This document shows positions 21,050 through 26,850 of a stretch of DNA of 64,000 nucleotides, one piece after another. Every line of letters starts with the position of its first letter. Position 1 is the first letter of the stretch. Below the pieces are notes generated by a model. The model saw nothing but the letters and a program-made list of their open reading frames with translations. It did no database searches and was not told where the DNA came from. Position numbers and translations under genes: made by a program. Source of the DNA: Variovorax sp. TBS-050B. GTDB taxonomy: Bacteria; Pseudomonadota; Gammaproteobacteria; Burkholderiales; Burkholderiaceae_C. The stretch is from the NCBI RefSeq assembly GCF_029893635.1, contig NZ_JARXYR010000002.1:4811001-4875000 (forward strand), read 5' to 3'.

Positions 21050-21490
21050 TCAGGGCACGAGGGCCGCGATCGCGAGCACGTAGCCCTTGACCCCCAGGCC
21101 CACGATGATGCCCTTCGCGGCCGGCGAGATGTACGAGCGATGGCGGAATTCCTCGCGCGCATGCACGTTCGAGATGTGCAGCTCGATCAGCGGCACGCTC
21201 GCGCCCTTGATCGCGTCGTGCAGCGCGATCGAGGTGTGGGTGTAGGCGCCCGGGTTCATCACCACGCCGAGCATGCGGCCCGCGGCCACTTCGCGGCCCG
21301 CTTCCTGGATCCAGTCGATCAGCACGCCTTCGTGGTTCGACTGGCGGCATTCGATCGCCACCCCGTGCTTCGCGCCCGCTTCCTGGCAGAGGCGCTCCAC
21401 GTCGGCGAGCGTGTCGCGTCCGTACTGTTCGGGCTCGCGGGTGCCGAGCAGGTTGAGGTTGGGGCCGTTGAGGACGAGGATTTTCTGCAT
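21050..21490 (-). CDS. aroQ: Type II 3-dehydroquinate dehydratase
   Basis: The 146-residue dodecameric-type enzyme of the shikimate pathway dehydrates 3-dehydroquinate to 3-dehydroshikimate. Motifs are [18 protein letters not shown] with the catalytic Tyr, ECRQSNHEG with the Asn-His pair, [15 protein letters not shown] and [17 protein letters not shown]. It is convergent with spoVR (3-base gap) and divergent from the Rieske gene. It has no functional link to either neighbour that I can see. Confidence 0.96.
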
Positions 21491-21569: not shown

Positions 21570-22256
21570 ATGCAAACGGATTTTTCACCGGACTGGCATC
21601 CGGTCGCCCCCTCGGCCGGCCTGCACGCCGGTGCCAACATCGTCGCGGGCTTCGCCGCGGGCCAGGAACTCGCGCTCTGGCGCGCCGCGGACGGGCGCGC
21701 GCAGGCATGGGAGAACCGCTGCCCGCACCGCAGCGTGCGCTTCACGCTCGGCACCGTGGCCGGCGATCAGCTCGCCTGCGCCTACCACGGCTGGCAGTAC
21801 GCCGCGGGCAGCGGCCAGTGCACGCGCATTCCCGCGCATCCTGCGATGCAGGTTCCGCAGAGCGTGTGCGCGAAGGTCTTCGACGTGTCCGAGGCGGCCG
21901 GCATGCTGTGGGTCCGGCTCGCGGCTTCCGGGACGGCCGACGTGCCGCGCGACGATGCGGTGCCCTCCGGCTGGTCCTTCGGCCGCACGCTGTCCGTGCG
22001 CGCCGACCTGGCGCAGGTGCGCGATGCGCTCGCGGCGCGCGGCTTCGCGACGCAAGGCTCGCACGCGGCCCTGCGCGGCCGGCTCGGGGGCGTCGACACG
22101 GTCGCGCTCCTGCTCGACGCGCGGCCGCAGCTGGCCTTCCTCCATCTCTGGACCGAGGCGACCCCGGGCAGCGCAGCGATGGCGACGCTGCACCGTGCCG
22201 CACGCGAACTGCGCGCCGCGGTCGAAGCGCTGCAACCGCCGCAGGCCGCCCCCTGA
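21570..22256 (+). CDS. Stand-alone Rieske [2Fe-2S] protein
   Basis: The 228-residue protein has an N-terminal Rieske domain (about 5-110) with the full cluster motif: Cys51-Pro-His53, 16 residues, Cys70-Ala-Tyr-His73 (CPHRS and CAYHGWQY). This is the oxygenase-type Rieske fold. The last 110 or so residues match nothing I recognise and lack the mononuclear iron motif, so it is not itself an oxygenase. The next gene is an oxygenase lacking exactly this cluster. I infer that this protein passes electrons to it, as the Rieske domain fused to NdmD does for NdmC in caffeine N7-demethylation. No reductase gene is nearby. Confidence 0.82.
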   Translation: MQTDFSPDWHPVAPSAGLHAGANIVAGFAAGQELALWRAADGRAQAWENRCPHRSVRFTLGTVAGDQLACAYHGWQYAAGSGQCTRIPAHPAMQVPQSVCAKVFDVSEAAGMLWVRLAASGTADVPRDDAVPSGWSFGRTLSVRADLAQVRDALAARGFATQGSHAALRGRLGGVDTVALLLDARPQLAFLHLWTEATPGSAAMATLHRAARELRAAVEALQPPQAAP

Positions 22257-22261
22257 ACACC

Positions 22262-23131
22262 ATGTCTTTGTTCCTCACCGACGATCCCAACATGCTCGAC
22301 GACTGGCTGGTCGTCGGGCCCGCCTCGGCACTGGCCGGTGCCACCGAAGCACGGCCGCACGCCGTGCGCCTGCTCGGCACGGCCCTGCGGCTCTGGCGCG
22401 ACGCGGCGGGCGCGCCGCAATGCCGCCTCGGCAGCGAGGCGCTGGCCGTGCAGCAGCGCCATGGCTACCTCTGGGTCTGCCCGAGCGGCAGGCCCGCACG
22501 GCCGCTGTTCGACTTTCCCGAATACGGCGAACCCGGCCGCCGCCTCGTCGACTGCGGCGGCATCGGCGTGGCGGTGTCGGGGCTGCGGGTGATCGAGAAC
22601 TTCCTCGACATGGCGCACTTCCCCTTCGTGCATGGCGGTTGCCTCGGCATGGTGCCGCACACCGAAGTGGCGAAGTACCAGGTCGAGGTCGACGCCGCCA
22701 CGGGCGAGATCTGGGCCACCGATTGCCGCTTCTGGCAGCCGCGCGCCTCGGCCGCGCACGACGGCAGCGGCAGCGAGGTGCTCTACAAGTACCGCGTGAT
22801 GCAGCCTTTCTCGGCCATGCTCTACAAGTCGAGCCACCGCGCCGGCGCGCTCGATGCCATCGGGCTGTTCCTGCAGCCGCTCGACGACGAGCACGTGATC
22901 GCGCACACGCTGCTCGCCTGCTACGACGACGTCTCCAGCGACGCCGAGCTCATCGCGTTCCAGCAGACGATCTTCGGCCAGGACAAGCCGATCCTCGAGA
23001 ACCATGCCTTCAAGCGCATGCCGCTCGAAGGCCGCGCCGAGACGCCGACGCGCGGCGACACCTCCTCGGTCACCTACCGCCGCTGGCTGCGCGAGCGCGG
23101 CATGCGCTTCGGCGTGAGGCAGGCGGCATGA
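22262..23131 (+). CDS. Rieske oxygenase alpha subunit lacking its Rieske cluster (NdmC-like)
   Basis: The 289-residue protein aligns with the PobA/NdmA type of Rieske oxygenase. It enters with DDWLVVGP and RLLGTALRLWRD and then jumps to LAVQQRHGYLWVCPSG, so the segment that should carry CxH and CxxH is missing. The catalytic mononuclear iron motif is intact: Glu112-x3-Asp116-x2-His119-x4-His124 (ENFLDMAHFPFVH). C-terminal FGQDKPILENHAF and SVTYRRWLRERG are also family-like. Rieske-less NdmC, of similar size, removes the N7-methyl of 7-methylxanthine and needs a GST-like partner, NdmE. Here a Rieske gene precedes and a GST gene follows with an ATGA overlap. The substrate is unknown. Confidence 0.82.
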   Translation: MSLFLTDDPNMLDDWLVVGPASALAGATEARPHAVRLLGTALRLWRDAAGAPQCRLGSEALAVQQRHGYLWVCPSGRPARPLFDFPEYGEPGRRLVDCGGIGVAVSGLRVIENFLDMAHFPFVHGGCLGMVPHTEVAKYQVEVDAATGEIWATDCRFWQPRASAAHDGSGSEVLYKYRVMQPFSAMLYKSSHRAGALDAIGLFLQPLDDEHVIAHTLLACYDDVSSDAELIAFQQTIFGQDKPILENHAFKRMPLEGRAETPTRGDTSSVTYRRWLRERGMRFGVRQAA

Positions 23132-23766
23132 TCCGGCTCTACGACCACCCGCTCTCGGGCAACTGCTTCAAGGTGCGCCAGCTGCTCGCCTGGCTCGATC
23201 TCGCGTACGAGCGCGTGCCGATCGACTTCCATCCGGGGCGCCAGCACAAGTCGGCCGCGTTCCTTGCCGAGGTCAACCCGCTCGGCCAGCTGCCGGTGAT
23301 CGACGACGAGGGCTTCGTGCTGCGCGACGCGCAGGCGATCCTGGTCTACCTGGCGAGCAGACACGACGCACATCGCCGCTGGTACCCCGACGACGCGCGG
23401 CTGCGCGGCGAGATCGCGATGTGGTTCGCGACCGCCGACGAGCTCACGCGCACCGCATCGGCGGCGCGCCTGCATGATGCTTTCGGCTACGTCCACCTCG
23501 ACATCGACGCCTGCCGGCGCGGCGCGCATGAGGTCTTTCGACTGTTCGACGACCATCTCGCCGAGCGCGCGAGCAGCGGCGGCCTCTGGCTCGCCGGACC
23601 GCACGCGACGCTCGCGGACCTGGCGTGCTTCCCGTATGCGGCCCTCGCGGGCGAAGGCGGCATCGCGCTCGACGAATACCCGGCGCTGCGGCACTGGCTC
23701 TGGCAGTTTCGCCACCTGCCCGGCTTCATCGGCATGTCGGGTATCCCCGCGCTGGCGCCAAATTGA
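23128..23766 (+). CDS. Glutathione S-transferase-like protein (NdmE-like)
   Basis: The 212-residue protein has an N-terminal thioredoxin-fold GST domain (about 1-80: MIRLYDHPLSGNCFKVRQLL, NPLGQLPVIDDEGF, LRDAQAILVYLA) and an all-helical C-terminal domain (about 88-205: GPHATLADLACFPYAAL). It overlaps the oxygenase stop by four bases, so the two are co-translated. In caffeine degraders, NdmE is a GST-like structural partner required by NdmC, and the gene order here mirrors that. A real glutathione-transferring activity is also possible given the following glutathione-dependent formaldehyde genes. Confidence 0.85.
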   Translation: MIRLYDHPLSGNCFKVRQLLAWLDLAYERVPIDFHPGRQHKSAAFLAEVNPLGQLPVIDDEGFVLRDAQAILVYLASRHDAHRRWYPDDARLRGEIAMWFATADELTRTASAARLHDAFGYVHLDIDACRRGAHEVFRLFDDHLAERASSGGLWLAGPHATLADLACFPYAALAGEGGIALDEYPALRHWLWQFRHLPGFIGMSGIPALAPN

Positions 23767-23817
23767 CCCGCGCACTGGGTATCCTTCTTCCTTCGTTCCC
23801 GAATCCGCTACAAGCCC

Positions 23818-24924
<1,107 letters not shown>

Positions 24925-25015
24925 CCCCCAGGCTGCGCGCACTGCGTGTCGCTTCGCCCACCCCCTTGCGAGGGGGCAACACCGGCGGACCGGCGGAGCC
25001 GGTTCCGCGGTGTTT
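24925..25015 (+). repeat. Dispersed intergenic repeat, copy B
   Basis: This copy starts at the base after the frmA stop with CCCCCAGGCTGCGC and runs through CCCACCCCC, GAGGGGGCAACACCGGCGG and GGCGGAGCCGGTTCCGCGG to TGTTTC. It has the same orientation as copy A. It splits frmA from the downstream hydrolase-fghA genes and could act as a terminator-like or mRNA-processing structure. Confidence 0.82.
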
Positions 25016-25057
25016 CTGGCTTGGGACATCAGCTCACTCTCTGGAGATGATCTCGTG

Positions 25058-25978
25058 ATGGAAAGAATGGAGCCCCTGCGGAAGATCGAAGCCGGCGTGC
25101 TCGAAGTCGCGTACTTCGAGGCCGGGCCGGCGGACGGTCCGCCGGTGCTGCTGATGCACGGCTTTCCCTACGACATCCACACCTATGCCGAGGTGGCGCC
25201 GCTGCTCGCGGCGCAGGGCTGCCGCGTGATCGTTCCCTACCTGCGCGGCTATGGCGCCACGCGCTTCCTGAGCGATGCGACCCCGCGCTCGGGCGAACAG
25301 GCGGCGCTGGGCGCCGACCTGCGCGCGCTGCTCGACGCGCTGGCGATTCCGCGCGCGGTGCTGGCCGGTTACGACTGGGGCGGCCGCGCCGCCTGCGTGG
25401 TGGCGGCGCTGTGGCCCGAGCGCTGCGCGGGGCTGGTCTCGTTCAACAGCTACAACATCCAGAACATCGCGAAGGCGATGGAGCCCGACACGCCGGCCAA
25501 CGAGCTGAGCCTCTGGTACCAGTACTACTTCCACAGCGAGCGCGGCCGCGCCGGGCTCACGAAGGACCGCCGCGGGATCGCACGGCTGCTCTGGAAGCTC
25601 TGGTCGCCCACCTGGGCCTTCGACGACGCCACCTTCGCGCGCAGCGCCGCCGCCTTCGACAACCCCGACTTCGTCGAGGTGGTGATCCATTCGTACCGGC
25701 ATCGCTTCGGCCTGGTCGCGGGCGACCCGGCCTGCGCGGAGATCGAGCGCCGGCTCGCCGCGCAGCCCGTCATCAGCGTGCCGGCCATCACCTTCGACGG
25801 CCTCGACGACGGCGTGCGCCCGCCCGCCGAGGCATCGGCCCATGCGGACCGCTTCAGCGGTCCGCGCTCGCACCGGCTGGTGCCCGGCGTCGGCCACAAC
25901 ATGCCGCAGGAGGCGCCGCGCGTCTTTGCCGACGCGGTGCTCGAACTCGTGCCCCTTCTGAACACCGATCCTTCATGA
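25058..25978 (+). CDS. Alpha/beta hydrolase, epoxide hydrolase / haloalkane dehalogenase-like
   Basis: The 306-residue hydrolase has HGFPYD as the oxyanion motif and an Asp nucleophile in GYDWGGRAA, as in epoxide hydrolases and dehalogenases. An acidic residue lies in TFDGLDDGV and the catalytic His in GVGHNMPQEAP. The substrate is unknown. I chose ATG 25058, preceded by GGAG at 25043-25046. The frame stays open upstream to an ATG at 25010, but that lies inside the dispersed repeat and is unlikely. It overlaps fghA by four bases, so it is likely co-expressed with formaldehyde detoxification. Confidence 0.82.
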   Translation: MERMEPLRKIEAGVLEVAYFEAGPADGPPVLLMHGFPYDIHTYAEVAPLLAAQGCRVIVPYLRGYGATRFLSDATPRSGEQAALGADLRALLDALAIPRAVLAGYDWGGRAACVVAALWPERCAGLVSFNSYNIQNIAKAMEPDTPANELSLWYQYYFHSERGRAGLTKDRRGIARLLWKLWSPTWAFDDATFARSAAAFDNPDFVEVVIHSYRHRFGLVAGDPACAEIERRLAAQPVISVPAITFDGLDDGVRPPAEASAHADRFSGPRSHRLVPGVGHNMPQEAPRVFADAVLELVPLLNTDPS

Positions 25979-26850
25979 CCGACACCCTCGCCATCCTTTC
26001 CGAGCACCACGTCTTCGGCGGCGTGCAAGGCTTCTACGCACATGCCTCGCGCGAGATCGGGCTGCCGATGCGCTTCTCGCTCTACCTGCCGCCGCAGGCC
26101 GCGCATGGGCGCGTGCCGGCGCTGCTCTACCTGGCGGGGCTGACCTGCAACGAGGAGACCTTCGCGGTCAAGGCCGGCGCGCAGCGCATGGCGGCCAGCC
26201 TCGGACTCGCGCTGATCGCGCCCGACACCAGCCCGCGCGGCGTCGCGCCCGAGAACCTGCCCGGCGCCGCCACCGACTGGGACTTCGGCGTCGGCGCCGG
26301 CTTCTACCTCGACGCCACGAACGCGCCCTGGTCCGCCCACTGGCGCATGGAGAGCTGGATCGTCCATGAGCTGCTGCCCCTGGTGGCGGCGAAATTCGCC
26401 GTCGACGGCCAGCGCCTCGGCATCTTCGGCCATTCGATGGGCGGCCACGGCGCGCTCACGCTGGCGTTGCGCCACCCGGGGCGCTTCAAGTCGCTGTCGG
26501 CCTTTGCGCCGATCTGCGCGCCCACGCAATGCCCGTGGGGCGAGAAGGCGTTCGCCGGCTATCTGGGCGATGCGGGCGACGACCGCGCGCAGTGGCTCGC
26601 ACACGATGCGAGTGCGCTGATGAAGTCGCAGACCGCCGCGCCGTATCCGCAGGGCATCCTGGTGGACCAGGGGCTGGCCGACAAATTCCTCGCCGAACAG
26701 CTGAAGCCCGAAGCCTTCGAGGCCGCCTGCTTCGCCGCCGGCCAGCCGCTGACGCTGCGGCGCCATGCGGGCTACGACCACGGCTACTACTTCATCCAGA
26801 CCTTCATGGCAGACCACATCGCCCACCATGCCCAGACGCTGCACGGCTGA
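25975..26850 (+). CDS. fghA: S-formylglutathione hydrolase
   Basis: The 291-residue esterase-D family serine hydrolase splits S-formylglutathione to formate and glutathione, completing the pathway begun by FrmA. Motifs are YLAGLTCNEETFAVKAGAQR, PDTSPRG, the nucleophile elbow GHSMGGHGAL, and HAGYDHGYYFIQTF with the catalytic His. The length is typical (about 280-290). It starts within the stop of the preceding hydrolase gene. The pair frmA and fghA is split here by the repeat and the unknown hydrolase. Confidence 0.95.
   Translation: MTDTLAILSEHHVFGGVQGFYAHASREIGLPMRFSLYLPPQAAHGRVPALLYLAGLTCNEETFAVKAGAQRMAASLGLALIAPDTSPRGVAPENLPGAATDWDFGVGAGFYLDATNAPWSAHWRMESWIVHELLPLVAAKFAVDGQRLGIFGHSMGGHGALTLALRHPGRFKSLSAFAPICAPTQCPWGEKAFAGYLGDAGDDRAQWLAHDASALMKSQTAAPYPQGILVDQGLADKFLAEQLKPEAFEAACFAAGQPLTLRRHAGYDHGYYFIQTFMADHIAHHAQTLHG

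Follow-up and report, generated by a model that had tools for sequence, protein, structure and literature searches.

A probable N-demethylase of the NdmC clade divided between a free-standing Rieske protein and a Rieske-less oxygenase

What enzyme is encoded by three adjacent genes in which a Rieske oxygenase and a Rieske cluster sit on separate proteins? The genes are found on the + strand of a 64-kb stretch (64,000 nucleotides) of Variovorax sp. TBS-050B, which was analysed as a whole and is called the window here. They encode a free-standing Rieske [2Fe-2S] protein of 228 aa (21570..22256; PF00355, E 2.1e-18), a Rieske-less, NdmC-like non-heme iron oxygenase of 289 aa (22262..23131; VanA_C, E 9.8e-18) and an NdmE-like protein of 212 aa with GST_N and GST_C domains (23128..23766). 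The oxygenase gene starts 5 bases after the Rieske gene, and the GST start overlaps the oxygenase stop in an ATGA (23128-23131). The gene calls agree with the initial annotation, which had placed the three genes at these positions and with this overlap. The + strand order continues, 51 bases after the GST gene, with frmA for S-(hydroxymethyl)glutathione dehydrogenase (23818..24924; TIGR02818, 626.9 bits, cut-off 543.95), an alpha/beta hydrolase (25058..25978; PF00561, E 9.6e-22) and frmB for S-formylglutathione hydrolase (25978..26850; TIGR02821, 415.3 bits, cut-off 281.7), so that the six genes span 21570-26850. The initial annotation did not mention frmA or frmB. Upstream of the trio, aroQ is divergent (21050..21490, - strand; PF01220, E 1.2e-60). 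No BMP-type transporter or deaminase gene lies beside the trio in the window.

A domain search found no Rieske domain in the oxygenase, and the N-terminal CxH...CxxH site expected of alpha subunits is absent. What is left is a fold remnant (aa 11-73; 22292..22480, + strand), in which the cluster-binding segment is missing after about aa 54. In a profile alignment with 23 intact oxygenases (pairwise E 3.7e-63), a single large gap of ~53 residues spans the cluster segment. Because this one gap lies there, the oxygenase has no hidden cluster, and its lack of CxH/CxxH stands as initially described. Residues 11-54 of the oxygenase match residues 5-47 of the Rieske protein (profile, E 3e-9), and the match stops 4 residues before Cys51. 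The predicted model superposes nearly over its full length on intact alpha subunits, with SxtT/GxtA as the best structure match, and it indicates that the Rieske fold is retained with the cluster segment excised. Searched at the DNA level, the window contains 1 match to the first half of the cluster motif where chance predicts 1.57, a result that by itself says nothing. The motif occurs in 0 of 88 related oxygenase ORFs from the best 80 loci of at least 521 relatives, a count that is no independent test because those loci were picked for likeness to Rieske-less enzymes.

The catalytic iron site is kept. Across 65 aligned oxygenase sequences, Asp116, His119, His124 and Asp241 are invariant. The initial annotation had listed Glu112, Asp116, His119 and His124 as retained; of these, the last three are invariant and Glu112 is nearly so. 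Asp241, probably the third iron ligand, was missing from that list. We take Asp116 to be the bridging residue and His119, His124 and Asp241 to be the iron ligands, and the site has the 2-His-1-carboxylate and bridging Asp of Rieske oxygenase alpha subunits. Comparisons with NdmC, NdmD and NdmE were made with the Pseudomonas putida KF715 homologues, named by gene order and annotation, and not with the CBB5 sequences. On this basis the proposed relation to NdmC was supported, with 49.5% to the KF715 NdmC-like protein and a place in the same clade (100/100).

The preceding gene encodes a Rieske domain with Cys51, His53, Cys70 and His73, as had been noted, and all four are invariant in 71 aligned sequences. 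The protein ends at 22256 without a reductase part, which fits the earlier description of the module as free-standing. Its C-terminal part (aa 136-220; 21975..22229, + strand) carries no iron ligands. It had been proposed as a novel domain of about 110 residues, a proposal that is ruled out by the model, by structure comparison and by the occurrence of the same segment inside NdmD. In pairwise profile comparisons, the Rieske protein aligns with roughly residues 1-240 of NdmD-type proteins (E 9.5e-58). Its C-terminal part, taken alone, still matches the stretch of those proteins that separates the Rieske domain from the reductase (E 1.9e-9 to 1.6e-10). The predicted model superposes over almost its entire length on intact Rieske-oxygenase alpha subunits, SxtT/GxtA being tied for best. 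On these grounds, the C-terminal part is best read as a shrunken, iron-less relic of a catalytic domain.

This relic is evident mainly from the model and through NdmD as an intermediate, and the Rieske relic of the oxygenase from sequence profiles as well. Directly compared with the oxygenase, the C-terminal profile of the free protein gave only a weak local match of 21 residues (E 0.0016 to 0.0045) and nothing significant in global mode (E 0.12 to 0.91). The NdmD segment matched the oxygenase catalytic domain with E 1.6e-6 and 6e-7, and a combined free-plus-NdmD profile matched it with E 0.00021 (best of 50 column-shuffled controls, 0.17). None of the C-terminal or NdmD-segment profiles matched intact oxygenases significantly (E 0.012 to 0.92). 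A simple Rieske-type ferredoxin has no further domain; here, an extra folded domain of about 90 residues is present. For both halves, the best solved sequence matches are SxtT/GxtA, followed by NdmA. The Rieske protein and the oxygenase look like complementary halves of a duplicated oxygenase.

A scan of genome contigs confirmed at least 521 relatives, of which the best 80 loci, by likeness to Rieske-less enzymes, were kept; this set is rich in Rhizobiales. Among these best 80, the Rieske protein is free in 67 and fused to a reductase (NdmD type) in 10; the three loci without one come from stretches of 9.5 to 10.8 kb. With a Rieske protein within the examined DNA of 77 of the 80, the split arrangement is not due to chance, and the homologues do not lie apart in other genomes. 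Of the 67 free-Rieske loci in this best-80 set, 14 have both domains, Rieske and oxygenase, on one strand; in the other 53 they lie on opposite strands, separated by 0.5 to 8.5 kb and often with transporter genes in between.

Five further loci (L033, L034, L035, L038, L156) have an oxygenase-reductase fusion ORF and a separate Rieske protein, the mirror image of NdmD. They come from four genomes of the same genus (G005, G051, G014, G049) and one of the same family (G215), and the ORF is 604 to 618 residues long in L033, L034 and L035. Both halves are thus found fused to a reductase, which ties both to one reductase type. In a further genome of the set (G015, L036:6824-8697), a frame break between the oxygenase and reductase parts is either an assembly error or a broken gene. 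The sets of L033, L034 and L036 sit between aroQ and frmA, the same place as the trio of the window.

Other arrangements were also seen. A tandem pair of Rieske-less oxygenases, 49% identical to each other in L005 (L005:7986-9797), occurs with one NdmD-type protein and one GST there and in L120, L124 and L199. Within the fused group, L104 (10897-12266) has an NdmD-like Rieske protein and no reductase before the GST, possibly a secondary loss. The Komagataeibacter/Paracoccus cluster (L006:4811-5344, also L046, L047 and L048) contains a second Rieske-less oxygenase with a Rieske-like protein, and the GST and reductase come after this second set. The third ligand Cys of the L006 Rieske-like protein is missing (GVYHGW), so it should hold no ordinary Rieske cluster; its counterparts in L046, L047 and L048 fail the same motif test.

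The GST of the window matches the KF715 NdmE-like protein at 48.6% and a Komagataeibacter GST at 54.4%, in support of the NdmE-type partner suggested earlier. An NdmE-type GST lies near 76 of the 80 split loci (best 80 of at least 521) and near none of 13 unsplit loci; the GST therefore belongs to the split. Neither a reductase gene nor a Rieske-reductase fusion matched in the 64-kb window. Ten reductase matches are found elsewhere in the genome, the best four at 36-40%. Two candidates (L166, L167) are near another Rieske oxygenase; near L164 and L165, none was recognised, either with the reference panel or in a scan of two neighbouring genes for each.

In a tree of 70 catalytic domains, the 48 Rieske-less rows formed one clade (100/100) apart from the 22 unsplit rows. 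The oxygenase-reductase fusions were one clade (100/100), and the window oxygenase clustered with four others from its genus and family (99/97). The rows of NdmD type were nested inside the Rieske-less clade. A single origin of the NdmD fusion survived the AU test (p-AU 0.536), for which some labels were changed by hand: L104 (a Rieske protein but no reductase), L110 (cut off by the contig end) and L111 (no Rieske gene within its stretch) were set to fused, L131 to unsplit and L036 (frame broken) to oxygenase-reductase fusion. With raw labels, the first version of the tree needs 18 changes for six labels. The Rieske-domain tree (94 rows, few columns) separated 48 of the 51 free-labelled rows, together with all 8 of the NdmD type, from the unsplit rows (SH-aLRT 93); the other 3 free-labelled rows lay outside the main free-plus-NdmD group. 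From these trees the free Rieske form looks older and NdmD derived, with moderate support for the order inside the clade.

Within the genus, 48 of 100 genomes, including that of the window, have a window-type oxygenase (E <1e-120), with no stops inside the listed matches. In the 47 others, identity to the window oxygenase is 81-89% for 46 and 66% for one; in G028 it was matched in two pieces. In a further 26 of the 100 genomes, the match has an E value of 1e-42 to 9e-37 and was taken to be of the unsplit type; 8 of these 26 loci were inspected. No genome among the 100 had both types. This mutual exclusion has a Fisher p of 7e-10, a value that ignores kinship and comes from lists drawn by hand, with the fragmentary G003 excluded. 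Beyond the genus, matches were found in 9 of 300 genomes of the order (E 1e-50) and 15 of 398 of the phylum (E 1e-45), some of them unsplit.

Clues to the substrate came from the neighbours of relatives. In the best 80 loci of at least 521, BMP-type transporter genes are present in 61, spread over 32 of 40 taxon labels, and deaminases of the guanine or 8-oxoguanine type in 43, over 20 of the 40. One representative deaminase passed the NCBIfam cut-off for 8-oxoguanine deaminase, and another that for guanine deaminase. The transporter representative is Bmp/PnrA-like by Pfam, a label that we take to be linked to purines; among NCBIfam models, a putative B6 transporter comes nearest, but with a score far under the cut-off. 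On the strength of label and presumed link, the BMP-type proteins are provisionally read as purine-type transporters. The transporter part was also found in 10 of 10 unsplit loci checked, and a deaminase in 5 of the 10. Most window-type loci of the genus have neither transporter nor deaminase neighbours: of eight with wide flanks, one of them in the window itself, L037 alone has a BMP-type binding protein. The genome of the window has three distant matches to 8-oxoguanine deaminase (26-32% identity).

Locus L158 comes from G215 in the family of the window, presumably Comamonadaceae. It encodes, in order, a BMP-type binding protein, the Rieske protein, the oxygenase (59% to that of the window), a reductase, the GST (64%), an NdmB-like protein, FrmB and an NdmA-like protein, with unassigned ORFs among the last genes. 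The NdmB-like protein scores 481 bits to NdmB and at most 424 to NdmA, and the NdmA-like protein 570 bits to NdmA and 405 to NdmB; by these scores they are probable orthologues of NdmB and NdmA. We read L158 as a putative caffeine N-demethylation cluster with the free-Rieske set in place of NdmCDE. A Komagataeibacter nataicola plasmid from kombucha tea carries the same trio together with a stand-alone reductase gene and two genes for NdmA/NdmB-like enzymes. The oxygenases of this kombucha plasmid (L006) and of Paracoccus versutus (L046) share 99% identity, suggesting that a caffeine-type cluster was transferred recently.

Judged from sequence, then, the Rieske-less clade probably acts on methylated purines, and N7 is the likely position because of NdmCDE. 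The initial annotation had proposed a related demethylase, and this is likely given the kinship to NdmC, NdmD and NdmE and the relatives beside NdmA/NdmB-like genes. For the native source, we infer 7-methylguanine; among the titles and abstract openings listed (20 of 70 and 25 of 577 papers), none describes a bacterial enzyme for its breakdown. The substrate in the strain of the window is a guess, because there is no reductase, transporter or deaminase beside the trio and the deaminase matches are distant.

The value of the formaldehyde genes as proof of function is weakened by three loci of the same genus without the trio (L203, L208, L209), in which aroQ lies 64 to 75 bases from frmA. In eight unsplit-type genomes of the genus, frmA was above the limit in seven, with aroQ directly adjoining in three of the seven; aroQ is about 1 kb from frmA in L206, and there is none near frmA in the DNA stretches examined of L205, L207 and L210. 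The position of frmA beside the trio may thus be partly a landmark of the genus. However, frmA/frmB recur near split sets elsewhere (L117, L159, L198, L046, L048), and the caffeine gene map of P. putida CBB5 includes both (PMC4408171). For these two reasons, frmA and frmB are kept as supporting evidence.

The split, the kinship to NdmC and NdmD, the gene order, the fusions and the neighbours, all evident in the sequences, are best explained by an N-demethylase of the NdmC clade whose Rieske oxygenase is split in two and which most likely removes the N7-methyl group of methylated purines. We consider this explanation probable. An ancestral full-length Rieske oxygenase would have been duplicated; one copy would have lost the cluster-binding segment and kept the mononuclear iron, giving the oxygenase, and the other would have kept the cluster while its catalytic domain shrank, giving the Rieske protein. 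A reductase encoded elsewhere would pass electrons from NADH to the [2Fe-2S] cluster of the Rieske protein. In the trimer of ordinary Rieske oxygenases, the electron comes from the Rieske domain of the neighbouring subunit, and the Rieske protein may dock on the oxygenase at this very position. The electron would then travel via Asp116 to the iron held by His119, His124 and Asp241. O2 would be activated, and an N-methyl group, most likely at N7 of a methylated xanthine, would be hydroxylated and released as formaldehyde. The GST would clamp the two halves to each other; in addition, it may couple formaldehyde to glutathione as a supply for FrmA and FrmB.

The same machine could also serve another substrate, as an O-/N-demethylase or hydroxylase of a non-purine that passes formaldehyde to FrmA/FrmB. 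The nearest solved structures include O-demethylases and saxitoxin hydroxylases, the window-type loci L039-L041 and L043-L045 have no BMP-type transporter or deaminase, and the purine cargo of the transporter family is an assumption, with a putative B6 transporter, below cut-off, as nearest NCBIfam model. We nevertheless regard a non-purine substrate as rather unlikely. L157 and L158, at 59-60% identity, lie beside a BMP-type binding protein, L158 also beside the probable NdmA and NdmB orthologues, and a transporter or deaminase is near 61 of the 80 split loci (best 80 of at least 521) and all 10 unsplit loci checked.

Another alternative, in which the Rieske protein would be an ordinary ferredoxin that carries an unrelated extra domain, works with several oxygenases and is placed here incidentally, is very unlikely. 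In its favour, the protein is free-standing with four cluster ligands, and the Rieske tree leaves 3 of 51 free-labelled rows out of its main group; against this, a Rieske protein accompanies 77 of the 80 oxygenase-clade loci (best 80 of at least 521), 48 free and all 8 NdmD-type rows stand apart from the unsplit ones (SH-aLRT 93, few columns), and the entire predicted fold is that of an alpha subunit. Decay, with a broken Rieske oxygenase in a non-functional trio, could explain why the cluster segment and the iron ligands are each missing from one half. It is hardly credible for an oxygenase that 48 of 100 genus genomes keep (E <1e-120) without stops inside the listed matches, and with ligands invariant in alignments of 71 and 65 sequences.

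The split N7-demethylase that we prefer can be set in a broader scheme, which we offer tentatively and rate at somewhat under an even chance. Complementary degeneration would have produced two paralogous pseudo-subunits clamped by the GST, NdmCDE would be a late fused offshoot of a wide family, and the ancestral job would have been recycling of N7-methylpurines, not caffeine, in plant-associated and soil Proteobacteria, with purines from nucleic acids. The proposed route would deaminate 7-methylguanine to 7-methylxanthine, which would be demethylated to xanthine.

Among the papers searched, judged by titles and abstract openings, none describes a free-standing Rieske version of NdmC-type enzymes. 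The present data outline a broader family whose Rieske module, iron site and reductase occur apart or are fused in different combinations, and which has unsplit relatives in like neighbourhoods. This family offers natural experiments on the way a Rieske cluster gains access to iron held by a different chain and on the role of the GST, which tracks the split, as well as a starting point for building Rieske enzymes with exchangeable electron donors. Its neighbour genes suggest a route for bacterial breakdown of 7-methylguanine.

The closest known system is NdmC-NdmD-NdmE, the 7-methylxanthine N7-demethylase of P. putida CBB5 (PMC4408171). Like the set of the window, it combines a Rieske-less oxygenase of the same clade, a Rieske module supplied by another protein and an NdmE-type GST, with frmA and frmB in the published gene map (PMC4408171). 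An NdmCDE-type enzyme also has a GST that is required for solubility and activity, forms a complex of three proteins and demethylates 7-methylxanthine, features that the trio of the window would be expected to share. NdmD, as its KF715 homologue, contains the same module of Rieske plus relic domain as the Rieske protein of the window, and adds a reductase. The Rieske module is fused to the reductase in NdmCDE, whereas it is a separate protein with no reductase gene nearby in the window; in five genomes, four from the same genus and one from elsewhere in the family, it is the oxygenase that carries the reductase. NdmA and NdmB, the methylxanthine N1- and N3-demethylases (PDB 6ick, 6icl), resemble the trio in fold, catalytic site and likely substrate class. 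Unlike the trio, each is one protein with its own Rieske domain, and the parts of the literature covered describe no GST partner for them. SxtT/GxtA (SxtDIOX; PDB 6wn3, 6wnc), the best solved sequence match for both halves, differ in being intact single-chain alpha subunits with other substrates. Full-length Rieske oxygenases that are not split, from the genus and the order of the window (such as L026 and L192-L197), lie outside the split clade and adjoin it, with about 40-50% identity in the catalytic part. They have their own Rieske cluster and no NdmE-type GST nearby, but they are found beside BMP-type transporters and share the transporter/deaminase neighbours of the split loci.
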